A DNA stretch of 43,748 nt from Candidatus Gottesmanbacteria bacterium GW2011_GWC1_43_10. Lineage in GTDB: Bacteria > Patescibacteriota > Microgenomatia > UBA10105. This document shows, in pieces, positions 3,273 to 42,441 of the stretch; within the stretch, counting starts at the first letter, position 1, and each line of letters opens with the position of its first letter. A program made the position numbers and the translations under genes. The notes under the pieces were generated by a model, which was not told the origin of the DNA, ran no database searches, and was given only the letters and a program-made list of their open reading frames with translations. The stretch is from assembly GCA_000995415.1 (NCBI GenBank), contig LCEX01000006.1, positions 1 through 43,748 on the forward strand, in the 5' to 3' direction.

Positions 3273-3301
3273 ATTTTAGTACAAAATCAATGTTTTGTCA
3301 A
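3273..3301 (-). promoter_or_regulatory. Toxin-antitoxin promoter with operator-like inverted repeat
   Basis: TTGACA (3296-3301), 17 nt, TAAAAT (3273-3278). The spacer holds the inverted repeat ACAAAA-6 nt-TTTTGT (3281-3298), well placed for RHH autorepression. The -10 ends 8 nt before the antitoxin ATG, so the transcript is probably leaderless. Confidence 0.7.
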
Positions 3302-3318
3302 TGATAACTAAATGTTTG

Positions 3319-3954: not shown

Positions 3955-3966
3955 AATTTACTCCTT

Positions 3967-6367: not shown

Positions 6368-6916
6368 GTTCCTCCAAGGGTAAAATTTAACCGTTTATTT
6401 CTTTATTTTTATAATATTAATGACATCAACCGATACCAGGCCAACTTGGCTAAACGTCAACTTCCTATATGGAGAGTAATTGTTCAGATTTCCGATAGAA
6501 AATCGTCATCGCGAGGCTACGAAGTAGCCGCGGCAATCTCATGAGATTGCTTCGCTACGCTCGCAATGACAAAATAATAGCGGAAGTCTGAACTGTTACT
6601 ATGGAGAGGAGAATATCTAACTGGTGATGAACCACAAAGACGCACGGTCATGTTAGGTATAAAAATGGGAATAGATCGAGATATTTTTCAACAGACGTAT
6701 GGACAAGATGTAGTAATAGCTTTTGAACCTATATGGGAACGCCTGGTTAGACTTAAACTCGTGGATGTCCATACTGAATCAGTAGATTTAACTTATCTAG
6801 GTAAACTTTTTGCCGATGAAGTTGGACAACAATTTTACTCTGATCCTATGAAACGTCGGATGGCAAAGGTAGATCCAGCATTAGTATCTACGACGTGGCC
6901 GCAATTTAATCCCTAG
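6368..6916 (+). pseudogene. Remnant of a HemN/HemW-like radical SAM protein, interrupted by a MITE
   Basis: Removing 6477-6599 and one copy of the 9-bp duplication restores a single frame: NINDINRYQANLAKRQLPIWRG, then EYLTGDEPQRRTVMLGIK, a middle part, then LVDVHTESVDLTYLGKLFADEVGQQFYS. This resembles the C-terminal region of coproporphyrinogen oxidase-like radical SAM proteins (R-G-x-x-L, D-x-x-R-R, L-T-x-x-G, F-x-D-E). The radical SAM core with its CxxxCxxC is absent upstream, so the gene was already truncated or has decayed. The frame ends at 6916, abutting the hxlB stop. Confidence 0.6.
6468..6608. mobile_element. MITE-like palindromic element with 9-bp target duplication
   Basis: Direct repeats TATGGAGAG at 6468-6476 and 6600-6608 flank a 123-bp element (6477-6599). 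Its ends are imperfect 18-bp inverted repeats (TAATTGTTCAGATTTCCG and the complement of CGGAAGTCTGAACTGTTA). The core is the CGTCATxGCGAG ... CTCGCAATGAC palindrome also found inside gatB and gatD. The element has no room for a transposase and would need one supplied in trans. Confidence 0.75.
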
Positions 6917-7477
6917 TCAAGATGGAAGCAAACGCTTATCCCGATTATTTCTTTGCCATATGGCCTCCAACTTAAAAGCCGCTGCTTCAAGAAAGATGAG
7001 AGAAGCTAATTCGAAAATTGAAGCAACCGGCGGACGTTCAGGAACTCCTATTAACTCTCGCAAGTGATAAATATGTCCTAGCCGCTTTGGCAAATGAGCC
7101 TGGATTACTACAGAAAAGTGAGATATTCTTGTAATGGAAGATTTCTCAGTTGCAGTAAGACTAATCACATTCCCACGCATCACGCGGCATATTTTCACAG
7201 TTTCTACAACCGTTTTAGTCTCGCCTGAACCCGATACTGCAATCAACAAATCATTAGGCGCAATCGGAGGAGTAACTGTCTCACCAACTACATATACCAT
7301 TTTACCCAATCTAGCTAAACGAACCGCAAATGACTTAGCCACCAAACCAGAGCGACCTTCACCTGTTACGTAGACTTTTTGTGCTTTCTGAACCTGATCA
7401 ACAAAACTTACTAGATCTGGTTGTTTTATTTTTTTGGTAACTCGGACGATTTCGCGTACTAAATTTGTAATCTCCAT
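6917..7477 (-). CDS. hxlB: SIS-domain sugar-phosphate isomerase, 6-phospho-3-hexuloisomerase-like
   Basis: 186 residues covering one SIS domain: VYVTGEGRSGLVAKSFAVRLARLG, then LLIAVSGSGETKTVV and VISLTATEKSSI. Length and motifs fit HxlB/PHI, which interconverts 3-hexulose-6-P and fructose-6-P. In archaea this is used with HPS to make pentose phosphate. A partner HPS gene is not in the window. It starts 5 nt after pyrD, in the same transcript, and could link ribose-5-P/PRPP supply to UMP synthesis (inference). Another KpsF-type SIS isomerase cannot be excluded. Confidence 0.72.
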   Translation of the reverse strand: MEITNLVREIVRVTKKIKQPDLVSFVDQVQKAQKVYVTGEGRSGLVAKSFAVRLARLGKMVYVVGETVTPPIAPNDLLIAVSGSGETKTVVETVKICRVMRGNVISLTATEKSSITRISHFSVVIQAHLPKRLGHIYHLRELIGVPERPPVASIFELASLIFLEAAAFKLEAIWQRNNRDKRLLPS

Positions 7478-7482
7478 ATAGT

Positions 7483-8400
7483 TTAATCAATGCATTTTTT
7501 GATTGATTTTAAATCTCGAATATGATGTTTTTCCATTATATCCTGCATTTGCTGCGCTATTTTAGGGAATATGCTGTTTCCTACTCCAAAAATAGCTGAT
7601 CCCACACCCACAAGTGTAGCACCAACCATAATCATTTCAATAGCATCTTCACCCGTACTCACTCCACCAATTCCAATGATTGGTATATTCACCGTTTTAG
7701 CGATTTCATATACACAGCGAAGAGCTAGTGGTTTGATCGCTTTTCCCGAAATTCCCCCTATCTTATGTCCTAATTTTGGTTTTCGTTTACTTACGTCGAT
7801 AAGCAATCCAGGTCCACTTGTATTGATAGCAGATATGGCATCAGCACCAGCTTCCTCTGCTGCTCTAGCAAACTCCGTAATATCGACCACATTTGGAGTA
7901 AGTTTCGCAATCACTGGAATGTCTCCTGCAGCCCGTTTGACTTCCTGAATAGCCAATGTAGTCATAAGTAAATCAGTGCCAAATGGTTTTCCAGCTTCAT
8001 CGTCTACGTTTGGACAAGATAAATTTATTTCGATGAAATCTGGTCTTGTTTTTGCCACCCCTAAAGCAAGCGGATAAAATTCTGATATTTGAAAAGCAAC
8101 AATTGATATGATGAGAGGAACTCTAATTTGCTTTTTGATATGTAAAATGTCTTTAGCAGCCTGTTCTAATCCCGGATTTTGGAGTCCAACAGAATTGATA
8201 TATCCACTCGAATAGGGAACTACTACAGGAACGGGATGACTCTTTCGCTCACGAAGGCTAACAGATTTCCAAGTAATCGCACCGATCCCTTTTTCTTTCG
8301 CTAAAACAGCGTTGGCTTGAGGACTAGTTACAATTCCTGAGACAGAAATTAGCGGAGAAGGGAATGTAACGTTACAAAATTTAGTTTGCAAAGTTTTCAT
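7483..8400 (-). CDS. pyrD: Dihydroorotate dehydrogenase, class 1 (1B-like)
   Basis: Oxidises dihydroorotate to orotate with FMN. In 305 residues: NSVGLQNPGLE, the catalytic Cys segment EINLSCPNV, VIAKLTPNV, INTSGPGLLIDV, GGISGKAIKPLALR and the FMN phosphate site IIGIGGVSTGEDA. These fit class 1B, which usually partners PyrK. No pyrK is present here. The gene follows a consensus promoter, a leader peptide and a terminator. The ATG has no close Shine-Dalgarno; a 14-codon frame upstream ends with TGA overlapping the ATG. Confidence 0.92.
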   Translation of the reverse strand: MKTLQTKFCNVTFPSPLISVSGIVTSPQANAVLAKEKGIGAITWKSVSLRERKSHPVPVVVPYSSGYINSVGLQNPGLEQAAKDILHIKKQIRVPLIISIVAFQISEFYPLALGVAKTRPDFIEINLSCPNVDDEAGKPFGTDLLMTTLAIQEVKRAAGDIPVIAKLTPNVVDITEFARAAEEAGADAISAINTSGPGLLIDVSKRKPKLGHKIGGISGKAIKPLALRCVYEIAKTVNIPIIGIGGVSTGEDAIEMIMVGATLVGVGSAIFGVGNSIFPKIAQQMQDIMEKHHIRDLKSIKKCID

Positions 8401-8442
8401 GATAATTTACTCAAATTTAATATCCTCTGTTTTAAAAACATA

Positions 8443-8464
8443 TAAAAAAACCGCTGACGCGGTT
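8443..8464 (-). terminator. Intrinsic terminator (attenuator) before pyrD
   Basis: On the minus strand the stem AACCGC/GCGGTT with loop GTCA (8449-8464) is followed by seven Us (8444-8450). The stop codon of the leader peptide overlaps the first bases of the stem. It lies 42 nt before pyrD and downstream of a strong promoter, so it would act as an attenuator rather than simply ending pyrC. Confidence 0.7.
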
Positions 8465-8519
8465 AGGTAAGAATAATACTCTTTAAGAAAAGATGAATTT
8501 GATTGCTATTTCTTTTCAT
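8463..8519 (-). CDS. Putative pyrD leader peptide, 18 aa (pyrL-like)
   Basis: ATG 8519 has GGAAG 7 nt upstream. The peptide is MKRNSNQIHLFLKSIILT and its TAA forms part of the terminator stem. The last 30 nt of its RNA are U-rich. A ribosome following a paused polymerase to this stop codon would block the terminator, as in enterobacterial pyrBI. Function is inferred from architecture. Confidence 0.5.
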   Translation of the reverse strand: MKRNSNQIHLFLKSIILT

Positions 8520-8540
8520 CTCTATGCTTCCAATAAATTT

Positions 8541-8570
8541 ATTATATGCAGTATTTTTTTCCATAGTCAA
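8541..8570 (-). promoter_or_regulatory. pyrD-hxlB promoter
   Basis: TTGACT (8565-8570), 18 nt, TATAAT (8541-8546) on the minus strand. It overlaps the 3' end of pyrC. Initiation near 8534 would leave a very short untranslated region before the leader peptide. Confidence 0.72.
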
Positions 8571-9685
8571 GAAACATTTAATTTAGTTTTTCTTCTTTTA
8601 ATTATTGTCTCACTAATATTATTGTTTTCTGTCGTATAAGATATTGTTGAAAAAGTAACTTTCTCTACTTTACCATACAATTCCCAATTCTCAAATGGTG
8701 ACCAACCGCATTTGGTTTTTAAATTTTCTTTTTTCAAAATATAAGGTTTTTCCGGCTCAAATTCGATGTAGGTATCTTTTTGATCCGGAATATGAAAAAT
8801 ATTCTTTGGTCGATCATAGAGAAATTGTTTTACTTGTTCAAGGGCTATTTTTTTATTATGAACTGACTTAAGAAGTAATCCTAGTGTGGTTTCTAACTCA
8901 GGAACTCCAAACATTGGTTTTTCCCCAGATTTTTCTTGAAGTGTATGAGGTGCGTGATCAGATTCAACGAGATCAATCGTTCCATCCAATAAGCCTTTCC
9001 ATAAAGCATCTTGATCTTGTTGATTTCCCAAAAGCGGTTTCATAGTCATAAACGAACCCCTCCTTTCCTCCCCTTTAACAAAGGGGAGGTTAGGTGGGGT
9101 TTTTGTATCTTCAACTGTTAAAAATAAATGATGTGGAGTGACTCCCGCAGAAATAGATAATCCTTTTTCTTTTGCCTTTTGTACCATTTCAACTTCTGAT
9201 GCAAGTGCAATATGACAAACATGTAATCGTCTCTTGTATTTTTCCGCTAAAAAAATGGTGTGCTCAAGTTGCATTTGCTCTGCATGAACTAAAATAGGTT
9301 TTTCAAAATTCCAAGCTGAAAAAATGTTATCCAGTTTTTCTTTATCCTCAATGAGCAAAGTACCGGTCGTATGGTTACAATAAATTTTCAATCCAAAAAC
9401 ATGAGGGTTTTTTGCTGCTTCAGCAAACGTGTCAGTATTATTTCCATCAGTTCCGAAATGAAATCCGATATCGCACTTGGCTTTTTGTTTGGATAATAAA
9501 ATTTTTTCTTCCAGCCGATCAAGAGTTATTGTAGGCGTAGGATTATTGGGCATATCAAGAATATAGGTAAATCCTCCAGCAAGTGCAGCTATCGATCCGG
9601 TTGCGAAATCCTCTTTATGAGTTGCTCCGGGATCACGAAGATGCACGTGAACGTCGATCAGTCCGGGAAAATGAATTAAGGACAT
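8567..9685 (-). CDS. pyrC: Dihydroorotase PyrC
   Basis: Cyclises carbamoyl aspartate to dihydroorotate. In 372 residues it has DVHVHLRDPG near residue 10, DMPNNPTP, GLKIY (candidate carboxylated Lys), VHAEQ, HVCHIA and ESDHAPH, the metal-binding set of the amidohydrolase fold. Residues about 195-210 (KTPPNLPFVKGEERRG) are the translation of a palindromic repeat that also occurs between other genes here, so this is a repeat-derived insertion. Last gene of carA-carB-pyrB-pyrC. Confidence 0.92.
   Translation of the reverse strand: MSLIHFPGLIDVHVHLRDPGATHKEDFATGSIAALAGGFTYILDMPNNPTPTITLDRLEEKILLSKQKAKCDIGFHFGTDGNNTDTFAEAAKNPHVFGLKIYCNHTTGTLLIEDKEKLDNIFSAWNFEKPILVHAEQMQLEHTIFLAEKYKRRLHVCHIALASEVEMVQKAKEKGLSISAGVTPHHLFLTVEDTKTPPNLPFVKGEERRGSFMTMKPLLGNQQDQDALWKGLLDGTIDLVESDHAPHTLQEKSGEKPMFGVPELETTLGLLLKSVHNKKIALEQVKQFLYDRPKNIFHIPDQKDTYIEFEPEKPYILKKENLKTKCGWSPFENWELYGKVEKVTFSTISYTTENNNISETIIKRRKTKLNVS
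9055..9101. repeat. Palindromic repeat inside pyrC
   Basis: AACCCCTCC...CTCCCC-TTTAACAAA-GGGGAG...GGTGGGGTT forms nested inverted arms. The same family lies at 10731-10780 and 29281-29350. Here it is read through in frame. Confidence 0.8.
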
Positions 9686-9699
9686 AATTATTACAAATT

Positions 9700-9757
9700 G
9701 TCATTCCCGTGAAAACGGGAATCTATTTAAATGGATCCCCGCCTTCGCGGGGATGAC
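9700..9757. repeat. Palindromic repeat pair between pyrB and pyrC
   Basis: GTCATTCCCG...CGGGAAT, a short spacer, then GGATCCCCGC...GCGGGGATGAC. This is the same double-hairpin family as in murT (36244-36297), carB (12371-12453) and the carA-carB gap (14140-14226). Confidence 0.8.
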
Positions 9758-9779
9758 GCCTTTTGTTATTAATGTCTAA

Positions 9780-10715
9780 TTACTTTTTTAAAATCAATGA
9801 TAGCAGGGCCATCCGAATATACATCCCGTTGGCCATTTGTTCGCGCACGTATAGGGCGCGCGGATCAAGATCAACATCAATCGTAATTTCTCCAACTCGC
9901 GGAAATGGGTGCATCAAAATTGCCGATTTTTTGAGTTTTTTCATCACCTCTGGCGTAATCACATAGTAGTGTTTTAGTTTTTCATAAATATTTAAATCAG
10001 TGAAACGTTCTTTTTGCACCCGGGTCACATACAACACATCTGTGGTAGGAAGTAATTCAACCAATTTTTGATATTCATGCACTTCTACTTTGCGCTCTTT
10101 GAGGAGGTCCATAAGTTCATTTGGGAGTCGCAAAATGTCTGGTGAAACAAAGTTTAATCTGATGGGCGCATACAAAGATAATAATTTACATAAGGAATGG
10201 ATGGTCCGGCCATTTAGTAAGTCTCCAGCTAACGTCACAGTCAGGTTCTTCAGCTTTTTAAAATGCGATGTGATCGTAAATAAATCCAATAGAGCCTGTG
10301 TCGGATGCTCACCCACGCCATCTCCAGCATTGATCACCGGTTTTTCCGTAAAATCTGCTGCCATTCTAGCCGAACCTACCTCCGGATGCCGAATAACAAT
10401 AACATCTGAATAACTGGCAAAAGTCCGGACTGTATCTGGTAAAGATTCGCCTTTGGAAACTGATGAATAAGTGACTCCCTGAAGCGGAATAAATCCGCCG
10501 CCCAACCGCTGCATTGAAGCTACAAATGAACCAAACGTACGACTCGATGGCTCATAAAACAACGCAGTCATAACTTTGCCTCTTAATATTTGACTGCCGC
10601 CTTTTGTTTTGACCATTTGTTTCATTTTTTGGGCGGTGGTTAAAATCAGTTCAAGCGTTTTTTTGTCAAACTGCCCAGCGCTAAGTATGTCTTTACCATA
10701 AAGTGTATTTTTCAT
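9780..10715 (-). CDS. pyrB: Aspartate carbamoyltransferase catalytic subunit
   Basis: Condenses carbamoyl phosphate with aspartate. In 311 residues: FYEPSSRTFGSF (carbamoyl-phosphate loop, SSRT in place of STRT), GDGVGEHPTQALLDL, VLYVTRVQKERF and MHPFPRVGEI. No regulatory pyrI gene is present, so allosteric control by nucleotides through PyrI is not expected. Attenuation upstream of carA may supply control instead (inference). Confidence 0.94.
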   Translation of the reverse strand: MKNTLYGKDILSAGQFDKKTLELILTTAQKMKQMVKTKGGSQILRGKVMTALFYEPSSRTFGSFVASMQRLGGGFIPLQGVTYSSVSKGESLPDTVRTFASYSDVIVIRHPEVGSARMAADFTEKPVINAGDGVGEHPTQALLDLFTITSHFKKLKNLTVTLAGDLLNGRTIHSLCKLLSLYAPIRLNFVSPDILRLPNELMDLLKERKVEVHEYQKLVELLPTTDVLYVTRVQKERFTDLNIYEKLKHYYVITPEVMKKLKKSAILMHPFPRVGEITIDVDLDPRALYVREQMANGMYIRMALLSLILKK

Positions 10716-10730
10716 TTTGGATTCCCTCCC

Positions 10731-10780
10731 TTAACCCCTCCTCACCTCCCCTTTATAAAAGGGGAGGAAGGGTGGGGTTT
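10731..10780. repeat. Palindromic repeat between carB and pyrB
   Basis: AACCCCTCCTCACCTCCCC-TTTATAAAA-GGGGAGG...GGTGGGGTTT: nested inverted arms of the family also found inside pyrC and upstream of gatB. Confidence 0.8.
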
Positions 10781-10791
10781 AATTTTTGTAA

Positions 10792-13700
10792 TTAATTTAT
10801 CCATTCACTCCACGACTTTATTGATAAGTCTTCTAATTTGTATTTGCTGATAGCCCGTATGAAAAACCGCGCACTTTCAATATTTGTGAAAAGTGCCACT
10901 CCTAAATCAATTGCCAGGCGACGCATTTGGTATCCGTCAGAATACGATTTTGTCACAATATTTTTCTGTGTATCGCTTGTCGTTTCCGGAACCACAATCG
11001 CAAAATCAATCAGTTTCTTAATCAGTAAATCAATCGCAGTCGGACGAATGCCTTCATATATTTTTCCGACCCGGATAGTTTCAATCCCATTTTCTTTCAA
11101 AAAGAGGGCTGTGCCGCTGGTTGCATAAAGTTTATATTTTATAAATACAAGTTCACGGACACTTTCCAAAAAGGCTAACTTTGACCTCATACCTCCCAGA
11201 CTTAAAAAAACCGACTTTTGTGTAGGATACTTTTTACCAGTGGATAACTCTCCCAATAAAAAAGCTTCGTAGGCATCGCGACCAAATCCCACGACCTCAC
11301 CTGTCGAACTCATTTCCACTCGAAGTACCGGATCAGCTCCCCGAAGTTTGCGAAACGAAAACTGCGCCACTTTCACGGCTTGGGGTGTTTTTGGTGAGGG
11401 TTTAATCGGAGTAACTTGTTTGCCAATCGCAATTTCGGTGGCAAGACTGATAAAGTTGTGTCTCGTTATTTTACTCACAAAAGGGAAACTGCGGGATGCG
11501 CGTAAATTACATTCGATCACAAAAAGTTCTTCTTTGTAAATCAAAAATTGGACGTTTACCGGCCCGTTTACTTTTAGTTCTTTGATAATCTTAGCTGCCG
11601 TATCTGAAACAGCTTGAGTCAAATGGGCGTTGATTTTGACAGCCGGCAACATGAGTGTCGCATCTCCCGAGTGCACTCCTCCATGTTCGACATGTTCACT
11701 AATGGCAAATATCATAACCTGCCCGTTTTGGGCAACTGCGTCAAAATCTACTTCTACCGCAGCTGCCAAAAATTTTGACATGACCAGCGGATATTCTTTT
11801 AAGTCCAAACGACAAACGTTTAAGTAATCTTTGAATTCTTGTTCCGAATAAATCAGATTCATCGCCTTTCCCGAAAGCACAAATGAGGGTCGGACCAGAA
11901 TCGGATATCCAATCATAGCCGCTGCCCGGAGCGCCTGAGAAACAGTTCCAACTTTGGCCCAAGCCGGTTGCTTGATACTCAACTTATCAAGAATTTCACT
12001 AAAAGATTTGCGGTGTTCTGCTAAATGAATTTGCTCTGGTTGGGTTCCTAGTATGGGAATTCGCCGCTGCTTTAGTTTGGGAGCTAAGTTATTGGGAATT
12101 TGGCCGCCGACGGAAACGATAAATGGGGCTTGTTCAAGGTCATAAATATCCAACATCCGCTCGAGTGTCAATTCCTCAAAATACAAATAGTCTGAATAAT
12201 CATAGTCCGTGGACACGGTTTCCGGATTGCAGTTGATCATGATCGTGGTAATTCCTCGTTGGCGTAGTGTCGTGACTGTGTTGACCGCACACCAATCAAA
12301 TTCCACAGAAGTACCGATCGCATATGGACCACTACCTATGACAGCGACTTTATTGTTTTTATTATTCTTTGTCATTCTGGCTTGTCCAGAATCCGCCTTT
12401 CCTGATTTGTTTAGAGAATTATTTAAATAGATTCCCGCTTTCGCGGGAATGACAAGGGAATTGGCGGGAATGATATGAAAACCGGAAGGAATGGTACTAT
12501 TTGGCAGGTGATCACTTTCACTTGCGTTATATGTCATATATAGATAGTTGGTAGCCGCCGGAAACTCTCCGGCCATAGTATCAATGCGTTTAACTTTGGG
12601 AGTAATTCCCCATTTTAGTCGTTTGTTTCTGATTGTTGCTTCTTTAAGTTTGTAAATATCTGCAATTTGGCTATCGGAAAAACCCATTTCTTTAGCTGTT
12701 TTTAAAAGCTCGTAAGTTATTGGTTTGCGGTTCAATTGATCAAACAATTGCACTATTTGTTTAAGTTGTTCAATAAACCAAGCATCAATTCCGGTGAGTT
12801 TTGCAATAGTTTTAACCGGAACTTTTTTATAGAGTGCGCTACAAATGGTAAATAAGCGAAGCGGTGTGGGTTGCCTTAGTTTTTCGAGTAATTCTTTTTG
12901 GGAATTATGATTGTGGCTAACGTCAATAACACCCTTGTATCCATCATTTAACATGCGCGTTGCTTTTTGGATCGCTTCGGGAAAAGTACGAGCAATACTC
13001 ATGACTTCGCCGACACTTTTCATTTCACTACCAATACTTTCCTCAACTGCTACCAGTTTATCTAAATCCCAGCGCGGGAGTTTAACGACAATATAATCCA
13101 ATGCCGGCTCAAAAAAGGCACTGGTTTTACCTGTAACTAAATTCTTAAGCTCCGGAAGTGTTTTGCCTAACGCTAGTTTTGCAGCTACATAAGCCAAAGG
13201 ATAACCCGTAGCTTTGGAAGCCAGAGCAGAAGACCGAGAAAGCCTGGCATTGACTTCAATAATCCGGTAATCAAATTTTTTGGGGTTTAAGGCAAATTGG
13301 ATGTTGCATTCGCCGACGATTTTAAATTCGCGGATAGTATCAATTGCTACTTGGCGAAGTGCGAAATATTCTTCATTATTGAGAGTTTGCGAAGGCGCTA
13401 CCACAATTGATTCTCCCGTATGGATCCCTACCGGATCAAAATTTTCCATGTTGCAAACAGTGATACAGTTGTCGTTTTTGTCCCGAACCACCTCATATTC
13501 CACTTCTTTCCAACCGGTCAGACATTCTTCAACTATGGCTTGGGGACTCGCGGCCAGAGCATTGGTTAATATTTGTTCCAGTTGTTTGACGTTTTGGGCA
13601 ATACCTGATCCGGTTCCTCCCAAAGCAAAACCGGTTCGTACCATCACTGGAAATCCCAAATTTTTGGCAACCCCAAGTCCTTTTTTTACAGTAGAAACAG

Positions 13701-14130
13701 CTTTGCCACGCGCGGTTTTTAAGCCAATATTCATAAGTCTTTGGGTAAACCGTTTGCGGTCTTCGGTATCAATCACTGCCGAAATCGGTGTTCCCAAAAC
13801 TTGCACCTGGTGTTTTTTGAAAATCCCTCGGTGAAATAATTCCAGACCGCAATTTAAAGCAGTTTGGCCACCAAACGAAAGTAAAATGCCATCCGGTTTT
13901 TCTTTTTTAATAATTTTTTCGACAAAAAAGGGAGTCACCGGCAAAAAATAAATTTTGTCAGCGAGTCCTTCAGAGGTCTGAATCGTTGCAACGTTAGGAT
14001 TAACCAGAATAATTTCTATCTTTTCTTCTTTAAGCGCTTTGATGGCTTGAGTTCCGGAATAATCGAACTCTCCGGCCTCGCCAATTTTGAGAGCCCCAGA
14101 ACCGAGAAGTAGAACTTTATTTGTTTTCAT
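10792..14130 (-). CDS. carB: Carbamoyl-phosphate synthase large subunit
   Basis: Makes carbamoyl phosphate from bicarbonate, ammonia and 2 ATP. The 1112 residues hold two ATP-grasp halves, starting GSGALKIGEAGEFDYSGTQA and VAVIGSGPYAIGTSVEFDWC, with FGGQTALN and VGGQIPNN. The AGEFDYSG start resembles the CAD-type (eukaryote-like) enzyme more than E. coli CarB. Residues about 559-587 between the halves are encoded by an 83-bp palindromic repeat, which explains part of the extra length over about 1070. The C-terminal domain (residues about 970-1112) is MGS-like and would be the regulatory region. Confidence 0.93.
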   Translation of the reverse strand: MKTNKVLLLGSGALKIGEAGEFDYSGTQAIKALKEEKIEIILVNPNVATIQTSEGLADKIYFLPVTPFFVEKIIKKEKPDGILLSFGGQTALNCGLELFHRGIFKKHQVQVLGTPISAVIDTEDRKRFTQRLMNIGLKTARGKAVSTVKKGLGVAKNLGFPVMVRTGFALGGTGSGIAQNVKQLEQILTNALAASPQAIVEECLTGWKEVEYEVVRDKNDNCITVCNMENFDPVGIHTGESIVVAPSQTLNNEEYFALRQVAIDTIREFKIVGECNIQFALNPKKFDYRIIEVNARLSRSSALASKATGYPLAYVAAKLALGKTLPELKNLVTGKTSAFFEPALDYIVVKLPRWDLDKLVAVEESIGSEMKSVGEVMSIARTFPEAIQKATRMLNDGYKGVIDVSHNHNSQKELLEKLRQPTPLRLFTICSALYKKVPVKTIAKLTGIDAWFIEQLKQIVQLFDQLNRKPITYELLKTAKEMGFSDSQIADIYKLKEATIRNKRLKWGITPKVKRIDTMAGEFPAATNYLYMTYNASESDHLPNSTIPSGFHIIPANSLVIPAKAGIYLNNSLNKSGKADSGQARMTKNNKNNKVAVIGSGPYAIGTSVEFDWCAVNTVTTLRQRGITTIMINCNPETVSTDYDYSDYLYFEELTLERMLDIYDLEQAPFIVSVGGQIPNNLAPKLKQRRIPILGTQPEQIHLAEHRKSFSEILDKLSIKQPAWAKVGTVSQALRAAAMIGYPILVRPSFVLSGKAMNLIYSEQEFKDYLNVCRLDLKEYPLVMSKFLAAAVEVDFDAVAQNGQVMIFAISEHVEHGGVHSGDATLMLPAVKINAHLTQAVSDTAAKIIKELKVNGPVNVQFLIYKEELFVIECNLRASRSFPFVSKITRHNFISLATEIAIGKQVTPIKPSPKTPQAVKVAQFSFRKLRGADPVLRVEMSSTGEVVGFGRDAYEAFLLGELSTGKKYPTQKSVFLSLGGMRSKLAFLESVRELVFIKYKLYATSGTALFLKENGIETIRVGKIYEGIRPTAIDLLIKKLIDFAIVVPETTSDTQKNIVTKSYSDGYQMRRLAIDLGVALFTNIESARFFIRAISKYKLEDLSIKSWSEWIN
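12371..12453. repeat. Palindromic repeat inserted in frame in carB
   Basis: Outer arms GTCATTCTGG...CCAGAATC and ATTCCCGC-TTTC-GCGGGAATGAC flank a T/A-rich middle. It is read in frame as VIPAKAGIYLNN... in the linker between the two synthetase halves. Confidence 0.82.
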
Positions 14131-14139
14131 AATATTATT

Positions 14140-14226
14140 GTCATCCCCGGCTTGCCTGCCCGCCTTTGGAGGGACCGGGGATCTGTTCTTAGGTCTAGGA
14201 CAGATTCCCGCCTACGCGGGAATGAC
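14140..14226. repeat. Palindromic repeat between carA and carB
   Basis: GTCATCCCCGG...CCGGGGATC followed by ATTCCCGC...GCGGGAATGAC, the same double-hairpin family. All three gaps of the carA-carB-pyrB-pyrC operon hold such a repeat. Confidence 0.8.
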
Positions 14227-14241
14227 ATCTTTAAACTTTAG

Positions 14242-15315
14242 CTATAATTCCCCAAACATCCCAAACACCCACTCTGTATCAAATGGTCCGGGACAGCCTT
14301 CGGGATGAAACTGCATACTCATAATCGGCTTTTTTTTATGTTTAATCCCCTCATTGGTACCATCATTCAAGTTCACAAACCACTCGCTAAAATCTTGTGG
14401 TAAGGTTTTTTTATTGACTGCATAGCCGTGGTTTTGGCTCGTGATATAAGCTTTATTTGTGGAAATGTCTAAACACGGTTGATTGAGTCCACGGTGTCCG
14501 TAAGGCAATTTATAAGTATCAGCTCCGATGGCCAAGGCCAAAAGTTGGTGTCCTAAACAAATACCCACAAAAGGCAAATCAGTTTTTAAAATATTTTGAA
14601 TGATTGCCACAGTCTCCGTCCAGTCTTTGGGATCTCCCGGCCCGTTGGAACAAACCACGCCGTCAACTCGTTCGCTTAACTTTAAAGGGTCAAAATCGTA
14701 TGGTACTCGAATCACTTTGTACTGTTGCCTAAGTAGAGCGCGAATAATGCCGTGTTTTACGCCACAATCCAAAAGCGCAATTGTCCGAGCAGGTTTTCCT
14801 TTTGGCAAATAAGAAATAATTTGATTGTGACTTACCTTTTTGATTGTTCCAGGGGTATCAACGGTTTTCCAGGAAATTTTCTGACCGGAATTTGTAAGTT
14901 TCCCTTTCATTACTCCTTTCTCGCGTAAATTTAACGTCAACGCCCGGGTATCAACCCCAGTTACGCCGGGTATTTTTTGCTGTTTCAACCAGTTGTCAAA
15001 AGTGGCAAAAGATGCGTGGTGGGAGGGGTATTCAATTTGTGTACCAACTACAACTCCTTGGACCCAAATCCGCTCCGACTCAAAATTCTTCAGCAAGTGT
15101 TTGTCCTGATAAACAACTTTGGGCACGCCGTAATTTCCGAGCAAAGGATAGGTAAATGTGAGAATTTGTCCGGCAAATGACGGATCGGTGAGACTTTCGG
15201 GGTATCCGGTCATACCGGTTGAAAATACCACCTCGCCCAGTGTCTCATTATTTGCTCCAAATGCCTCGCCTTCTAAAACCGTCCCGTCCTCCAAATGTAA
15301 GTATTTCTTAGTCAT
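14242..15315 (-). CDS. carA: Carbamoyl-phosphate synthase small subunit
   Basis: Glutaminase subunit that feeds ammonia to CarB. The N-terminal domain is YLHLEDGTVLEGEAFGAN...GEVVFSTGMTGYPESLTDPS. The class I amidotransferase triad is Cys in VGICLGHQLL and His/Glu in MQFHPEGCPG. I prefer ATG 15315 (MTKKYLHLEDG). ATG 15324 is 9 nt further up and abuts a terminator U-tract with no room for a ribosome site. As with CarB, the sequence looks CAD-like (GYPESLTDPSFAGQ). First gene of the UMP operon, behind a leader with terminator. Confidence 0.92.
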   Translation of the reverse strand: MTKKYLHLEDGTVLEGEAFGANNETLGEVVFSTGMTGYPESLTDPSFAGQILTFTYPLLGNYGVPKVVYQDKHLLKNFESERIWVQGVVVGTQIEYPSHHASFATFDNWLKQQKIPGVTGVDTRALTLNLREKGVMKGKLTNSGQKISWKTVDTPGTIKKVSHNQIISYLPKGKPARTIALLDCGVKHGIIRALLRQQYKVIRVPYDFDPLKLSERVDGVVCSNGPGDPKDWTETVAIIQNILKTDLPFVGICLGHQLLALAIGADTYKLPYGHRGLNQPCLDISTNKAYITSQNHGYAVNKKTLPQDFSEWFVNLNDGTNEGIKHKKKPIMSMQFHPEGCPGPFDTEWVFGMFGEL

Positions 15316-15409
15316 ACCTGGCATAAAAAAAGAGCCCCTGGCTCTTGGATAATTTATAGCAATAAAGTTTAATTGACTTGATCATTTCGCTTGCACATAT
15401 TTCGGGCAT
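15308..15409 (-). CDS. Possible carA leader reading frame, 33 aa
   Basis: A frame from ATG 15409 (MPEICASEM...) runs through the terminator and stops at 15308, overlapping the carA ATG at 15315. A second in-frame ATG lies at codon 9. No good Shine-Dalgarno precedes either. The run before the hairpin is A/U-rich. Overlap of leader frame, terminator and next start resembles pyrBI, but this is the weakest of the leader candidates. Confidence 0.3.
   Translation of the reverse strand: MPEICASEMIKSIKLYCYKLSKSQGLFFYARYD
15325..15346 (-). terminator. Intrinsic terminator (attenuator) before carA
   Basis: The stem AAGAGCC/GGCTCTT with loop AGG (15330-15346) is followed by seven Us (15325-15331) on the minus strand and ends 9 nt before the carA ATG. 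It sits downstream of a promoter and well after the CBS gene stop (15454). Confidence 0.75.
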
Positions 15410-27734: not shown

Positions 27735-29267
27735 TTATTTTAACTGTTCTTGAAGTATTTTGCGAATAGAAACAGCATCTCCTCTTCCTTTGAGTTCGCG
27801 TTTGACTTGGCCAACGAAAAACATGATGATGCCGGTTTTACCCTTTTTATATTCTGCAACCGGTTGCGGATTGGCAGCGATAATTTGGTCAATCACACGG
27901 GTCAATTCCACTTCATCGACTTGTTTCACTTGTTTAGTTGCAGTAATTACCTTAATCAATTCTTCAGGAGATGCTTTTGTATAGTCTACTTTTTTATTGA
28001 TGATCCAATTGGCAAGCGACTGAATTGATAATTTTGAATTGATAATTGATAATTGGGAAGCACATTTCTCAAAAAAATTTGCCAGCTCTACTTCATCAGT
28101 CAATCTGGCTGCATCTTCAGGCTTAAGTTGGTAATTTTTGATAAATCGAGCCAATTTAACATCTGGTAACTCTGGGATTTTAGTTCTGAGTTCTGAAATT
28201 TGATCTTTCGTAACTCGCATCGGCGGAATATCCGGCTCGGGAAAATACCGATAGTCATGCGCTGCTTCTTTCCTCCGCTGGGGGAGTGTCACACCTTTTT
28301 TCTCTTCCCACCCCCTTGTTTCCTGAACAGGTGTCTCCCCTGCTTCGAGTATTTCAATCTGCCGGCCAACTTCATAATCAATGGCCTTTTTCACAAAATT
28401 GAATGAGTTGATATTCTTCACTTCGACTTTGTAGGATGGCAATTCGCTTTCATCGTCATTGCGAGGAGTCGAAGACGACGAAGCAATCTTAGATCCTGAA
28501 ACAAGTTCAGGATGACGAGGTGAAAAGGATTGCTTCGCGTTTATCCGCAATGACATTATCTTTACGGATATATTCGGCTCCAACCGCATACTTCCCTTTT
28601 CCATATCTGCGTCAGAAATATCCAAGTAGCGAATGATTTGGTGTAATTTCTTGAGGAAGGCTTTTGCCTCTTCTGATGAATTAATGTCAGGTTCAGTGAC
28701 TATTTCCACAAGCGGCACGCCACTGCGGTTGAAGTCAATTAACGAAACTTTCTTTCCATTGACTGTGGAATGAATGAGCTTTCCCGTATCTTCTTCTAGA
28801 TGAACCCGATGAATCCGGATTGTCTTGCCGTCATTGCGAGAAGTCCCGATTAAATTAAATCGGGACGACGAAGCAATCTTAGATCCTGAAACAAGTTCAG
28901 GATGACGAGGTGAAAAAGATTGCTTCGCTTCGCTCGCAATGACGATTTTTCCTCCCCGTGCGATGGGTTGATCGTATTGGGAAATCTGGTAGCCTTTTGG
29001 TAAGTCCGGATAAAAATAATTTTTGCGGTCAAATTTGGAAAAGAGCGAAATTTCGCTTCCCAAAGCCAGTCCCAACATGATCGTCCACTCAACCGCTTTT
29101 TTATTAGGAACCGGAAGCGCTCCGGGTAATCCCAAACACACCGGACAGGTGTAGATATTTGGTTTTGGCGCATGGAACGGATCGTTTTTGCAGCCGCAAA
29201 ACATCTTACTCTTGGTTTTGAGCTCAACATGTATCTCCATCCCAACGATAGTTTTGTAAGTTACCAT
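27735..29267 (-). CDS. gatB: Asp/Glu-tRNA amidotransferase subunit B
   Basis: Converts Glu-tRNA(Gln) and/or Asp-tRNA(Asn) with GatA/GatC. Start ATG 29267 (TYKTIVGMEIHVEL). It contains CGCKNDPFHAPKPNIYTCPVCLGLPG (zinc site), HLEEDTGKL, DFNRSGVPLVEIVTEPD and the C-terminal YqeY-like tail. Three stretches are repeat-derived: residues about 108-146 and 238-271 (both contain KQSFSPRHPELVSGSKIASS) and about 402-415 (SQLSIINSKLSIQS). These break an otherwise normal GatB without shifting its frame. Confidence 0.93.
   Translation of the reverse strand: MVTYKTIVGMEIHVELKTKSKMFCGCKNDPFHAPKPNIYTCPVCLGLPGALPVPNKKAVEWTIMLGLALGSEISLFSKFDRKNYFYPDLPKGYQISQYDQPIARGGKIVIASEAKQSFSPRHPELVSGSKIASSSRFNLIGTSRNDGKTIRIHRVHLEEDTGKLIHSTVNGKKVSLIDFNRSGVPLVEIVTEPDINSSEEAKAFLKKLHQIIRYLDISDADMEKGSMRLEPNISVKIMSLRINAKQSFSPRHPELVSGSKIASSSSTPRNDDESELPSYKVEVKNINSFNFVKKAIDYEVGRQIEILEAGETPVQETRGWEEKKGVTLPQRRKEAAHDYRYFPEPDIPPMRVTKDQISELRTKIPELPDVKLARFIKNYQLKPEDAARLTDEVELANFFEKCASQLSIINSKLSIQSLANWIINKKVDYTKASPEELIKVITATKQVKQVDEVELTRVIDQIIAANPQPVAEYKKGKTGIIMFFVGQVKRELKGRGDAVSIRKILQEQLK
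28022..28062. repeat. AATTATCAATT-type repeat translated in gatB
   Basis: Three copies of an ATTGATAATT-type motif in tandem, in frame as SQLSIINSKLSIQS. The same motif forms the stem before atpE. Confidence 0.65.
28454..28554. repeat. In-frame palindromic element, gatB copy 1
   Basis: Ends CGTCATTGCGAG and GCAATGAC; inner arms GAAGCAATCTT...GATTGCTTCG surround AGATCCTGAAACAAGTTCAGGAT. 101 bp, near-identical in its core to the copy at 28829-28944. Confidence 0.85.
28829..28944. repeat. In-frame palindromic element, gatB copy 2
   Basis: Full ends CGTCATTGCGAG / CTCGCAATGACG, the same inner arms and the same CCTGAAACAAGTTCAGG core, plus an extra hairpin (CCCGATT...AATCGGG). 116 bp. Confidence 0.85.
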
Positions 29268-29280
29268 AAAACATTCATAA

Positions 29281-29350
29281 CCCCTCCTCACCTCCCCTTA
29301 TCTTAAGGGGAGGAATTCCCTCTCTTAAATTAAGAGAGGGTTAGGGTGAG
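29281..29350. repeat. Double palindromic repeat between gatA and gatB
   Basis: ACCTCCCCTTA...TAAGGGGAGG followed by CCCTCTCTTAA...TTAAGAGAGGG, flanked by CCCCTCCTCACC and GGGTGAG. Family of 9055-9101 and 10731-10780. A GTG inside it opens a longer gatB frame that I do not use. Confidence 0.8.
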
Positions 29351-29428
29351 TTATGGACTTTCTAAAATTCCCGGTTTCCTTTTATGCCAATCAGTTTCTT
29401 GCTGATATGCGTATCCAATATTTAAGAG
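29351..29428 (-). pseudogene. Out-of-frame C-terminal remnant of gatA
   Basis: In a frame different from the gatA ORF this stretch reads PLLNIGYAYQQETDWHKRKP and ends at TAA 29351. This is the typical C-terminal helix of GatA. It shows that the end of the gene survives after an internal deletion with frameshift near 29428. Confidence 0.7.
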
Positions 29429-30662
29429 TGGTATACACATCAGCCAGCAAGTTTGCCAGCGGATCACTCATCAGTTCTCCAATTTTGGTGGGTGGAGTTG
29501 GATTGACAGGCATAAGGAGCACATCACAACTAGACAAGGCTTTTTCATATTCTTTGATAAATAGCGTTCGTGCTTGCTGAGCTTTTTTGTAATAAGCATC
29601 ATAGTAACCGGCAGATAGAGCATAAGTGCCGATCATAATCCGTCGCATAGTTTCGGGTGTGAATTGATTTCTTCCTTGTCCGTATCGTATCCCATCATAT
29701 CGAGCCAGGTTTGAACTCGTTTCACTCGGACCGATCAAATAGTAAACTGGTAATCCATAATCAAACATGGGCATAGATAACTCAATTAACTTTGCACCCA
29801 TTGATTCAAATTTTTTTGCTGCTATATCGATGCTTTTTTTTATTTCTGAGTCCAATCCTTGTCCAAAAAATTCTTTCGGAATACCCACTTTGATTCCTTC
29901 GATATTGCCTGTCAATTTTTGGGTATATTTTGGTACTTTGTGAGGTGAACTGGTCGCATCATAAGGATCTTGGCCGGCGACGAGTTCTAGTAGCAATGCA
30001 CAATCTTCGGCAGTTCTTGCCATGGGCCCAACAGTATCAAAAGATGAGGCGTAAGCTATGGTGCCATAACGTGACACTCTGCCATATGTGACTTTAAGGC
30101 CGGTGATATTACACCACGCAGCGGGATTTCTAATTGAACCTCCTGTATCTTCGCCTATCGCAAATGCGGACATCCGCGCCGCAATCGCAATGGCTGGACC
30201 TCCACTTGATCCACCTGCTACGCGAGTCGTATCCCAGGGATTTTTGGCTGGACCAAAATCTGTGTTTTCCGTACTTCCTCCATGACCCCACGCATCCATA
30301 TTCATTTTGCCGATAAGAATGGCGCCTGCATCCAGTAATTTTTGATAGACGGTAGCATTATACTGAGGAATATAGTTTTTTAAGACATTTGAGGCTGAAG
30401 TGGTACGAATCCTCTGGGTTATGTAGGCATCTTTGAGTACAAATGGTATTCCGTGTAGTGGAGAAGTATTTTCTGTGCGTTCATTATCTTTTTTTTGAGC
30501 GTAAGTAAGTGCAGTAGTATTGTCTATCACAGTTATAAAAGCATTTAATTCTTTTCCGTGTTTTTCAATAGCGTCATAACATTCAGTTACGATATCGACG
30601 CTAGAAAATTCTTTTTTGCGTAAACCTGCTGCTAGTTCTGATATTGTTTTATCCAATAACAT
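29391..30662 (-). CDS. gatA: Asp/Glu-tRNA amidotransferase subunit A, internally deleted and frameshifted
   Basis: Amidase subunit that hydrolyses Gln. Start ATG 30662 (MLLDKTISELAAGL), 4 nt after gatC. The catalytic Lys (GIPFVLKDAY) and the Ser-cis-Ser region (VAGGSSGGPAIAIAARM, EDTGGSIRNPAAW) are present. The frame ends at about 423 residues with ADVYTTLKYWIRISARN. In full-length GatA, DVYT is followed by about 50 residues (LAGLP-x-x-S-V-P, LPVGLQ) before the IGYAYQQ helix, and here that part is gone. Either the gene is damaged, or the assembly lost about 150-165 nt. Confidence 0.85.
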   Translation of the reverse strand: MLLDKTISELAAGLRKKEFSSVDIVTECYDAIEKHGKELNAFITVIDNTTALTYAQKKDNERTENTSPLHGIPFVLKDAYITQRIRTTSASNVLKNYIPQYNATVYQKLLDAGAILIGKMNMDAWGHGGSTENTDFGPAKNPWDTTRVAGGSSGGPAIAIAARMSAFAIGEDTGGSIRNPAAWCNITGLKVTYGRVSRYGTIAYASSFDTVGPMARTAEDCALLLELVAGQDPYDATSSPHKVPKYTQKLTGNIEGIKVGIPKEFFGQGLDSEIKKSIDIAAKKFESMGAKLIELSMPMFDYGLPVYYLIGPSETSSNLARYDGIRYGQGRNQFTPETMRRIMIGTYALSAGYYDAYYKKAQQARTLFIKEYEKALSSCDVLLMPVNPTPPTKIGELMSDPLANLLADVYTTLKYWIRISARN

Positions 30663-30666
30663 ATGT

Positions 30667-30972
30667 TTATTCTTCGAGTACTGCGTCCACCACAAAATAA
30701 CCACTGTGTGTGTTTTTAGCGTTCGAAAGCGCGGATTCTTGTGACAACATCCGTTTCTCATCGACAACATCTTCTCTAAATACATTTTCAAGACCAGTGA
30801 CTTGCGAAGTTTCCACTACTCCCTTCGTATCCAAAGCCTGAATTTTTGACATGTAACCAATTACGGAAGACAGTTGTTCAGCAATTTTTTGCAGTTGCTC
30901 ATCCGAAAGGACAAGGTTTGCCAGTTGGGCGATGTGTTTGACGTCATCAATAGTAAATTTTTTGGCTGCCAT
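30667..30972 (-). CDS. gatC: Asp/Glu-tRNA amidotransferase subunit C
   Basis: 101 residues. FTIDDVKHIAQLANLVLSDEQLQKIAEQLSSVIGYMSKIQALDT and FREDVVDE are typical of GatC, which stabilises GatA and GatB. No Shine-Dalgarno is seen. TATAAT lies 7 nt before the ATG, but the leader upstream suggests control from a distal promoter. Confidence 0.93.
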   Translation of the reverse strand: MAAKKFTIDDVKHIAQLANLVLSDEQLQKIAEQLSSVIGYMSKIQALDTKGVVETSQVTGLENVFREDVVDEKRMLSQESALSNAKNTHSGYFVVDAVLEE

Positions 30973-31412: not shown

Positions 31413-32846
31413 TTATACTCCCGAATACAAATAAAACTCGTACGGTGTGGGTCGAAGCGCGACCTCCTTAATTTCTGCTTCTTTCAAGTCCACCCACATA
31501 TCCAAAATGTCTTCGGTAAATACACTATCTCCAAGCAGATATACGTGGTCTTTTTTTAATGCATTTAAGCTGTCGGTCAAACTTCCGGGAACACTTTTGA
31601 TTTTTTTAGCTTCATCGCCAGTTAGTTCCCAAATATTTTTATCTAAGGGGCCATAACCCAATTTCACCGGGTCAAGTTTACGTTTAACTCCATCCAACCC
31701 GGCCATAAGAATAGCTGAAAAAGCAAAATACGGATTGGCTGTAGGATCTGGCGCGCGAAATTCAATGCGTTTGGTTTTGGCAAATTCGCGCCCGGAATAA
31801 TACATCGGGACGCGAATAATCGCGCTACGGTTTCTTTTGGAAAAAGCGATGTTAACCGGAGCCTCAAAGTGCGGAACCAATCTCCGGTACGAATTGGTGG
31901 TTGGCGCACAAAATGCCAGCAAGCTTTCAACATGAGTCAAAATCCCACCAATATAATAAAGCGCTAACTGTGATAATTCCGCATAGCTTTTTTCACCGTA
32001 AAATAAGTTTTTGTTGCCACGCCATAGACTATTGTGCACATGCATCCCGCTCCCATTGTCACCAAACAAAGGTTTGGGCATGAATGTAGCGGTCAGTCCA
32101 TATTTGCGGGCAGTATTTCGTACAATATATTTGTACATCAGAAGTTTATCAGCCATATTACGGAGTGAATCAAAGCGCATATCGATCTCACATTGTCCGG
32201 CTGTCGCTACTTCATGGTGGTGCATCTCTACTCTGGCTCCCCATTTCGTGAGATGCCCGACTATTTCACTACGCATATCCTGGAGCGTATCAAAAGGTGG
32301 AACGGGAAAATATCCGCCTTTGGTAGGGATTTTGTAACCCAAATTGGGAGTACCGTTGTTTTCGCCAATTTTCCAAGCCGCTTCCGGACTATCAATCTGA
32401 TAACTCATGTGTTGGGGATCAGTGGTATAAGACAAATGCGAAAAGACAAAAAATTCTGCTTCCGGGCCCCAGAAACTCACTTCAGCGATCCCACTTCGCC
32501 TGACATGCCGTTCAGCTTTTTCGGCCACGAATCGTGGATCGCGGGTATAACGGTCATTCTTTTCCGGATCAAATACATCGGCAATAAATACCAGAGTAGG
32601 AACTGTGTAAAATGGATCTATGTGAGCCGTTTCGCTATCGACGCGCAAAATCAGATCTGAATCATAAATCTGTTGGAAACCTTTGATACTTGAGCCGTCA
32701 AAACCCACGCCGTCTTCCAACACTCCACCAAGTTCTCCGATCGGAACCGACGCATGTTGCCATACTCCCAATGGATCGACGAAACGGAGATCAATGATTT
32801 GTGGTTTAGCTTCTTTAAGTAGTTTAGTGATTTTTGAAGATACCAT
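31413..32846 (-). CDS. glnA: Glutamine synthetase, type I
   Basis: Makes Gln from Glu, ammonia and ATP. 477 residues from ATG 32846, 5 nt after AAAGGAG. Motifs: VGFDGSSIKGFQ, WGPEAEFFVF, MHHHEVATAGQCEID, PLFGDNGSGMHVH, RNRSAIIRVPM and EFRAPDPTANPY. The region of the adenylylation Tyr in enterobacterial enzymes (KNLYDLP) reads KNIWELT near residue 402, so adenylylation control is not possible at that site. Control is likely by antitermination in the leader. The product feeds CarA, PurF and GatA in this window. Confidence 0.96.
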   Translation of the reverse strand: MVSSKITKLLKEAKPQIIDLRFVDPLGVWQHASVPIGELGGVLEDGVGFDGSSIKGFQQIYDSDLILRVDSETAHIDPFYTVPTLVFIADVFDPEKNDRYTRDPRFVAEKAERHVRRSGIAEVSFWGPEAEFFVFSHLSYTTDPQHMSYQIDSPEAAWKIGENNGTPNLGYKIPTKGGYFPVPPFDTLQDMRSEIVGHLTKWGARVEMHHHEVATAGQCEIDMRFDSLRNMADKLLMYKYIVRNTARKYGLTATFMPKPLFGDNGSGMHVHNSLWRGNKNLFYGEKSYAELSQLALYYIGGILTHVESLLAFCAPTTNSYRRLVPHFEAPVNIAFSKRNRSAIIRVPMYYSGREFAKTKRIEFRAPDPTANPYFAFSAILMAGLDGVKRKLDPVKLGYGPLDKNIWELTGDEAKKIKSVPGSLTDSLNALKKDHVYLLGDSVFTEDILDMWVDLKEAEIKEVALRPTPYEFYLYSGV

Positions 32847-33001
32847 AGTCGCTCCTTTCATAAAAAATGTGCTGTATTTTATACACTAATTCGAATAAAA
32901 ACCTTTTGTATACTGGCTCGTCTTCATCGATTTGGGCTAATTTATTTGGAAAATGTGATCCGATTTCAAAAAAGAGGGGCTTCAGGAACATAATTTTCCA
33001 C

Positions 33002-33047
33002 AAAAAAAGCCTTCCTCATCGCAAGCACGCTCGCGAATCGAGAAGAC
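33002..33047 (-). terminator. Intrinsic terminator in the glnA leader
   Basis: GUCUUC (33042-33047) pairs with GAAGGC (33009-33014) around an inner stem UCGCGAGC/GCUUGCGA, followed by seven Us (33002-33008). It lies about 155 nt before glnA and shares its 5' arm with hairpin P2 of the ANTAR-type site. Confidence 0.8.
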
Positions 33048-33080
33048 TTCATTGTCCTGCCTTTCACTTCTTTGTGAAAG
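33043..33080 (-). promoter_or_regulatory. ANTAR-type double-hairpin antiterminator in the glnA leader
   Basis: P1: CTTTCAC/GTGAAAG (33061-33080) with hexaloop AAAGAA. Linker GC. P2: AGGAC/GUCUU (33043-33058) with hexaloop AAUGAA. Both loops have A at position 1 and G at position 4, the hallmark of ANTAR-protein RNA targets, and P2 excludes the terminator stem. The GAF-ANTAR gene is directly upstream. Confidence 0.8.
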
Positions 33081-33090
33081 CTTACTTAAT

Positions 33091-33120
33091 CTTATAATCC
33101 AATTTCGATCATCTTGTCAA
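33091..33120 (-). promoter_or_regulatory. glnA promoter
   Basis: TTGACA (33115-33120), 18 nt, TATAAG (33091-33096) on the minus strand. The -35 overlaps the GAF-ANTAR stop codon. Transcription would begin just before hairpin P1. Confidence 0.75.
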
Positions 33121-33833
33121 GCCCCTAATTTTAATTTTTCGGCTAAAATAATCGTCTCGGCTATTTCTTTGATTGATTTGCGGCTACGCATACTTTCCTT
33201 TTGAATTTTCGTGTACGCCGTCGCCTCATCAATTTTTTGGTGCTTCATCAAAATACCTTTGGCGCGCTCAACCAGCTTTCTAAATTCCAAGGTTTCTTTA
33301 AGCTCCAGCGTTTCTTCAACCAGCAAAGCATTTTCAATGGCTCCTCCTACCAACTTGCCAATTGCCATCAACAAATTTATCTCACGTGCTTTGTACTTGT
33401 GCGGGAGCTGATGCTGCACATTTATCACTCCCACGATACCTATTTTATTTACTATCGGTACAGATAAAAAGGCGGCAAATTTGTCTTCAGGCAGGCTACG
33501 AAAATATTTAAACCGCGAATCATGATTGGCACCGGATTCGATCACCACCGGCTGTTTTTCTTTGGCTACCCAACCGGTGATCCCTTCACCCAGCTTCATC
33601 TTGATTTTCCGCAGCAGCTCCGGATGCGGATTTTGTGAGGCACGTAAGACCAACTCTTGCTTCTTTGCATCGTAAACGTAAATCAAACATGAATCGCTCC
33701 GGCTGATTTGCGAAGCTATCCGGACGATTTCGGCCAGCAATTCGCCGATTTCCAGACTATGGACAGAGCTTGCTACTCGGTAAAGGAATTCCAATTCTGT
33801 TTGCAATTCTTTGACCTGCTTCGCATCTATCAT
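33117..33833 (-). CDS. GAF-ANTAR antitermination regulator
   Basis: 238 residues from ATG 33833. Coiled N-terminus (AKQVKELQTELEFLYRVASSV), a GAF domain (residues about 25-175: SDSCLIYVYDAKKQELVLRA, GEGITGWVAKEKQPVVI, FAAFLSVPIVNK, GVINVQHQLPH), then an ANTAR domain (LVERAKGILMKHQKIDEATA, SMRSRKSIKEIAETII). ANTAR proteins bind double hairpins in nascent RNA and block terminators. The glnA leader next door carries such a site, so glnA is the likely target. The GAF ligand is unknown. Confidence 0.88.
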   Translation of the reverse strand: MIDAKQVKELQTELEFLYRVASSVHSLEIGELLAEIVRIASQISRSDSCLIYVYDAKKQELVLRASQNPHPELLRKIKMKLGEGITGWVAKEKQPVVIESGANHDSRFKYFRSLPEDKFAAFLSVPIVNKIGIVGVINVQHQLPHKYKAREINLLMAIGKLVGGAIENALLVEETLELKETLEFRKLVERAKGILMKHQKIDEATAYTKIQKESMRSRKSIKEIAETIILAEKLKLGA

Positions 33834-42367: not shown

Positions 42368-42441
42368 GCGGGATTAGTACACCGGTAGTATGCGTCCTTC
42401 CCAAGGACGAGAAGGGGGTTCAATTCCCCTATCCCGCTCCA
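42368..42441 (+). tRNA. tRNA-Gly (CCC), overlapping the recombinase end
   Basis: Acceptor GCGGGAT/ATCCCGC, D arm GTAC/GTAT, anticodon stem CGTCC/GGACG around TTCCCAA (anticodon CCC), T arm GGGGG-TTCAATT-CCCCT, encoded CCA. The recombinase reading frame on the other strand covers most of it, as expected for an attachment site in a tRNA gene. Confidence 0.92.

Follow-up and report, generated by a model that had tools for sequence, protein, structure and literature searches.

How glnA, the gene for glutamine synthetase (GS), is controlled in a bacterium of the candidate phyla radiation (CPR) is the question raised by a locus of Candidatus Gottesmanbacteria bacterium GW2011_GWC1_43_10. Little is known about gene regulation in CPR bacteria, and this locus allows all three components, a candidate regulator, the RNA it would act on and the enzyme thereby controlled, to be identified from sequence. 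The stretch of DNA that was analysed, hereafter the window, comprises positions 1 to 43,748 of contig LCEX01000006.1 (43,748 nt). On its minus strand, a gene for a GAF-ANTAR protein is followed by a promoter, a first hairpin (P1), the linker GC, a second hairpin (P2), a terminator and glnA.

The regulator gene (33117..33833, minus strand) encodes a protein of 238 aa, and Pfam confirmed that this ORF (33833-33117) is the GAF-ANTAR gene that a preliminary description of the DNA had placed upstream of glnA. Its TGA stop codon (33119-33117) lies inside the -35 box of a sigma-70-type promoter for glnA. This promoter consists of TTGACA (33115..33120, minus strand), an 18-nt spacer and TATAAG (33091..33096, minus strand), just as described previously; when the window sequence was re-read, the coordinates, loop sequences and stem lengths given in that description proved right to the base. 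CTTGACA is invariant in nine aligned leaders, and the TA of the -10 box is conserved in the leader alignment. From this layout, the glnA transcript would be expected to start just upstream of P1. The gene itself (31413..32846, minus strand) encodes a type I, beta-like GS of 477 aa, as assigned by Pfam and PDB alignment, and is preceded by a Shine-Dalgarno sequence, AAAGGAG, identified by eye (32852..32858, minus strand).

By eye, positions 1-15324 and 27735-30972 make the window rich in glutamine users: they include purF, carA/carB, pyr genes and, directly after glnA, gatC/gatA/gatB. A GatD/MurT pair on the upstream side was confirmed by Pfam. At the contig end (42368-43747), a large recombinase-like ORF on the minus strand runs across a tRNA gene on the plus strand (42368-42438), a layout like that of an integration site.

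The glnA leader has the form of an ANTAR target RNA, namely two stem-loops of at least 3 bp whose six-base loops carry A at position 1 (A1) and G at position 4 (G4). P1 (33061..33080, minus strand; CUUUCAC-AAAGAA-GUGAAAG) has 7 bp and the hexaloop AAAGAA, with a shuffle-test p of 0.001. P2 (33043..33058, minus strand; AGGAC-AAUGAA-GUCUU) follows after the 2-nt linker and has 5 bp, one of them G-U, and the hexaloop AAUGAA. The linker falls inside the 2-25 nt accepted for actinobacterial ANTAR RNAs (PMC8164766) and below the 5-12 nt of eut leaders, in which, according to Ramesh et al. 2012 (PMC3369931), shortening to 3 nt impaired induction. Behind P2 stands an intrinsic terminator (33002..33050, minus strand; U7 tail at 33008-33002), the stem of which begins inside P2, at 33050: the 5' arm of the terminator is the 3' arm of P2. 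Folded alone, P1 and P2 together reach -11.6 kcal/mol and the terminator -20.8 kcal/mol (z -3.0). When the whole leader is folded (-31.2 kcal/mol, z -3.8), P1 remains and the terminator displaces P2. P2, the presumed antiterminator, and the terminator use the same bases and are mutually exclusive, and P1 is independent of the terminator; the leader therefore has what an attenuator requires. Sequence and folding thus bear out both the dimensions of the two hairpins and linker and the strong terminator sharing the P2 arm, all of which had been read from the sequence earlier. The same exclusivity was found in most relatives, leaving aside two Roizmanbacteria loci, L048 and L059. Paired A1/G4 hexaloops arise on average 0.43 times per dinucleotide shuffle of the window (n=100), and in 0/100 shuffles together with a terminator; the actual window contains two such pairs, and the one with a terminator is the glnA leader.

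Comparison with relatives shows that this arrangement is conserved. The GAF-ANTAR protein is present in 12 other genomes of the window genome's class; a further candidate carrier, G041, was dropped as its match spans only part of the GAF domain. A named collection contained carriers among the Gottesmanbacteria, Roizmanbacteria, Levybacteria, Buchananbacteria and Uhrbacteria and in a number of further phyla. The DNA beside the GAF-ANTAR genes was read by eye and scanned for hairpins, which revealed a common pattern: a P1 of varied sequence, a P2 typically reading AAGAC-RNNGNN-GUCUU, and a terminator using the 3' arm of P2. Both hairpins are kept with an invariant G4 in 14 leaders, nearly all before GS genes, and 97.9% of cells in the 14-leader alignment pair, compared with 36-61% when the partners are slid; as P1 was chosen by eye and by scans seeking pairing and G4, this selection itself accounts for part of the pairing percentage and of the G4 invariance. 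It does not account for the variety of compensated pairs, nor for the constant position of P1 between promoter and P2. Covariation on both sides was seen for four of the five P1 pairs (14 paired hairpins), and a hexaloop hairpin with G4 occurs in the 38 nt before P2 in 14 of the 16 leaders examined (shuffle p 0-0.028 each). In contrast to the variable P1, P2 is near invariant, with GAC-NNNGNN-GUC in 14 leaders.

The preliminary description had proposed searching relatives' glnA leaders for two hexaloops before a terminator, with covarying stems, and this comparison found the G4 hexaloops kept. The A1/G4 code it expected stood for G4 and was relaxed at position 1, which is A or G in the relatives' loops, A1 having changed to G in several. 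Most relatives with GAF-ANTAR and GS have the paired hexaloops and terminator, as had been anticipated. The exceptions are G051, which has P2 and the terminator and no P1, and the Roizmanbacteria loci L048 (6440-6515) and L059 (3780-3860), in which both hairpins stand just before glnA and the terminator is absent. The latter two suggest that control in Roizmanbacteria may be translational.

Other arrangements were also encountered. For example, G105 and G114 carry the motif near the ANTAR gene, and GS is absent from both genomes. Double hexaloops at L028:4584-4630, L028:5040-5090 and L029:5086-5135 lie before short ORFs of unknown identity that immediately precede the ANTAR gene; GS was not detected in these two genomes, and autoregulation is possible there. 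In G094 (L020:4880-5010), the glnA leader lies 2 kb from the ANTAR gene and begins with AATTAGGGGCTTGACA, which resembles the end of the window's ANTAR gene and is perhaps a remnant of the adjacent arrangement.

Among the genomes searched, the leader goes together with the regulator gene. A covariance model of the two hairpins, R1, gave one good match in the window's genome (36.8 bits). A wider regulon was rejected, the next-best match scoring 15.2 bits and being followed by continuing coding sequence; the regulon in this genome appears to be a single gene. In G118, which lay outside the training set of R1, a match was found directly before glnA (E 0.017) on a contig separate from that of the ANTAR gene, while 16 ANTAR-less relatives gave no R1 match below E 0.05. 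Weak matches in G011, G041, G015, G005 and others were taken as chance, as those that were read had no leader before a nitrogen gene. R1 misses G070, in which the P2 stem differs; the leader there was found by eye and by scan. Patescibacteria with GAF-ANTAR contributed 15 distinct GS loci after removal of two duplicates, and 11 of these 15 are preceded by the leader with hairpins and terminator. The four loci without a full scan match are L048 and L059, G051, and L054, which has a short P2 and a terminator missed by the terminator scan. Upstream of other GS loci the leader was found in 0/38, a group that includes three loci from other phyla with a more distant GAF-ANTAR gene on the contig (L063, L110, L113) and otherwise comes mostly from a phylum sample in which ANTAR is nearly absent. 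Matched controls come from genomes without the protein: the leader is missing before an alpha-type GS (G024) and before third-type GS in G055, G056, G083, G120 and G128, whereas GS of these types are preceded by the hairpins where the protein occurs as well (Gottesmanbacteria; Roizmanbacteria L048). The leader is common to beta- and alpha-type GS. Regulator and RNA thus appear to be kept even where the enzyme type has been swapped, which suggests that the control circuit, and not a single gene lineage, is the object of selection.

At the genome level, GAF-ANTAR was found in 13 and GS in 18 of 138 relatives, with both in 11, ANTAR only in two and GS only in seven (Fisher 4e-10, a value uncorrected for kinship and inflated by the many Gottesmanbacteria). 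Two other searched members of the window genome's family have neither GAF-ANTAR nor GS. Across 380 genomes of the phylum, PF03861 was detected in the window's genome and as two weak matches only. GS-family proteins occur in 69/380 genomes of this wider sample while ANTAR is nearly absent; the coupling therefore belongs to certain lineages and is no general CPR rule.

The C-terminal domain of the window protein belongs to the ANTAR family both by score (PF03861, 68.1 bits against a curated cut-off of 27.3; 5.6e-19, Pfam) and by predicted fold, the AlphaFold model (pLDDT 89) comprising a GAF domain, one long helix and a three-helix ANTAR domain. By Pfam and the model, GAF covers residues 28-167, the connecting helix 149-199 and ANTAR 177-229. 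R185, K186, K192, E203, Y207, M215 and R218 correspond to R142, K143, K149, E160, Y164, M172 and R175 of EutV; these are the residues by which, in EutV, the flipped G4 is held and the loop filled. Other RNA-contact positions are changed relative to EutV (K147 to Arg, R168 to Gln, N173 to Arg and R177 to Ser). A1 is reported to make no specific contact in EutV (PMC8934654), which fits the drift from A1 to G in relatives. For the GAF domain, the nearest solved structures, by profile and by fold, come from PtsP, whose GAF domain is reported to bind both glutamine and alpha-ketoglutarate (PMC13104625). By analogy with PtsP, the signal sensed would most likely be glutamine and/or 2-oxoglutarate. 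The ANTAR tree does not resolve the exact neighbour of the window protein, so a transfer of the regulator-leader module from Gottesmanbacteria is only suggested.

The reading we favour, with a probability of about 0.9, is that a one-component ANTAR transcription-antitermination switch controls glnA. Transcription would start at the promoter that covers the stop codon of the regulator gene and would produce P1 and P2 at once. Without active regulator, the 3' arm of P2 would be drawn into the terminator and RNA polymerase would stop before glnA, leaving the gene off by default. On registering nitrogen need, the GAF domain would activate the regulator; a GAF-ANTAR dimer would then grip G4 of the hexaloops and hold P2 (and P1) closed, the terminator would be blocked and glnA would be read. 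These proposed steps match the established ANTAR mechanism (PMC8934654, PMC3369931). That the ANTAR protein prevents termination before glnA was the earlier reading too, and at the level of sequence it is supported by the comparative evidence and by the conserved loop-holding residues of EutV.

Several alternatives can be weighed against this switch. The regulator might bind P2 alone as a single hexaloop, with P1 an accessory or a stabiliser of the 5' end and antitermination retained. Consistent with this, one EutV dimer holds one hexaloop at a time in the solved structure (PMC8934654), the sequence of P2 is near invariant where that of P1 varies, and G051 does without P1 altogether. However, 14/16 leaders retain P1 with its G4 and with compensated stem changes, so P1 is under selection, and both loops are required in eutP (PMC3369931), which leaves binding of P2 alone unlikely, if the most credible of the alternatives. 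A main effect of the regulator on translation or RNA stability in place of termination is decidedly improbable: in the window, about 200 nt separate P2 from the first codon of glnA, and one arm of P2 forms part of a strong terminator, as it does in most relatives. Such action would suit the Roizmanbacteria hairpins standing close before glnA without a terminator, as well as actinobacterial ANTAR RNAs, which often overlap the ribosome site (PMC8164766).

A terminator does lie downstream of the ANTAR gene, and it could be the ordinary terminator of that gene, with the hairpins arising by chance or forming a constitutive attenuator. This is very hard to reconcile with the conserved promoter between the ANTAR stop and the hairpins, the covariation, the G4 conservation, the shuffles and the absence of the leader before other GS genes; shuffles and covariation together rule out a chance origin of the hairpins. 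Equally implausible is a protein-free metabolite riboswitch, for example for glutamine, even though a biosynthetic gene controlled by attenuation would be a natural place for one. The leader tracks the ANTAR gene and not GS, and it consists of two small hairpins without an evident ligand pocket. A search of Rfam with the leader found no matching family, ruling out a known Rfam riboswitch.

The proposed antitermination switch would also form a minimal nitrogen circuit, controlling GS in genomes in which searches revealed no P-II, GlnE or ammonium channel. Trp406 occupies the position of the adenylylation Tyr in the PDB alignment, in agreement with the earlier claim that the enzyme lacks this residue. 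GlnE was undetected in 15 genomes and detected in three control genomes; with Trp at the target position as well, neither mark of GS adenylylation control was found. P-II was found in 0/15 genomes, compared with 13/14 controls, and AmtB was undetected in 15 genomes, the controls being positive. The idea that RNA control replaces post-translational control fits the undetected GlnE and P-II, with the qualification that this evidence of absence comes from draft genomes. More broadly, nitrogen control in these CPR genomes (no P-II, GlnE or ammonium channel) might consist entirely of one protein, which would sense glutamine or 2-oxoglutarate through its GAF domain and hold the glnA leader, and the pair of regulator and leader might be a portable module placed before unrelated GS types. 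We offer this wider reading tentatively, with the odds leaning somewhat against it.

GAF-ANTAR loci in other groups show related arrangements. In Uhrbacteria (L057:6670-8013), a double hexaloop and a terminator stand between a GAF-ANTAR gene and a gene for an ammonium transporter (PF00909), and similar hairpins occur before amtB near GAF-ANTAR relatives in L057, L063 and L077. In Nitrospirota and other phyla (L063, L077, L072, L064, L086, L069, L080), GAF-ANTAR genes often stand in tandem pairs, and nearby hexaloop hairpins precede genes for amtB, glutamine-dependent NAD synthetase and substrate-binding transporters, which agrees with the published nitrogen theme. At two Planctomycetota GAF-ANTAR loci, L036 (~3850-3930) and L037 (~930-990), both hexaloops start with C and keep G4 (CTTGAT/CATGAA and CTTGCC/CATGAA), and Arg occupies the site equivalent to EutV Met172 in their ANTAR domains; this is possibly a different loop code.

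ANTAR antitermination is already known, and ANTAR RNAs have been predicted before glutamine synthases. Ramesh et al. 2012 (PMC3369931) predicts such RNAs before glutamine/glutamate synthase, ammonium transporter and P-II genes in other bacteria and calls GAF-ANTAR uncharacterised. No description of ANTAR regulation in CPR bacteria was found in the open-access literature, where the term GAF-ANTAR was met in one paper only, in passing; the preliminary statement that no CPR description was known holds within the literature searched. What this locus adds is the CPR lineage, a candidate target for a sensor of the GAF-ANTAR type and an apparently single-gene regulon. The GAF-ANTAR class thereby gains a concrete candidate target and a testable signal.

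Among known systems, the leader resembles that of eutP in Enterococcus faecalis, with dual A1/G4 hexaloops, AC-loop-GU closing pairs and a P2 overlapping the terminator, and the regulator shares with EutV the main ANTAR residues that contact RNA. EutV differs in its phosphorylated receiver domain and kinase EutW, its several ethanolamine-gene targets and its 5-12 nt linkers, whereas the window system has a GAF sensor, no adjacent kinase gene, one target and a 2-nt linker. NasR and the nasF leader of Klebsiella oxytoca are also similar, combining a one-component sensor-ANTAR protein with a two-hairpin leader before a nitrogen-assimilation operon; there, however, the sensor is a NIT (nitrate) domain and not GAF, and the target is nitrate assimilation. 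PtsP (EI-Ntr) provides the nearest solved structure to the sensor domain, but its output is phosphotransfer and not RNA binding. Compared with the RNAs of Ramesh et al. 2012, the consulted passages of which make no mention of the CPR group, the RNA element and the target class, including glutamine synthase, are the same; here the system belongs to the CPR group, the regulator adjoins its target and the regulon apparently consists of one gene.
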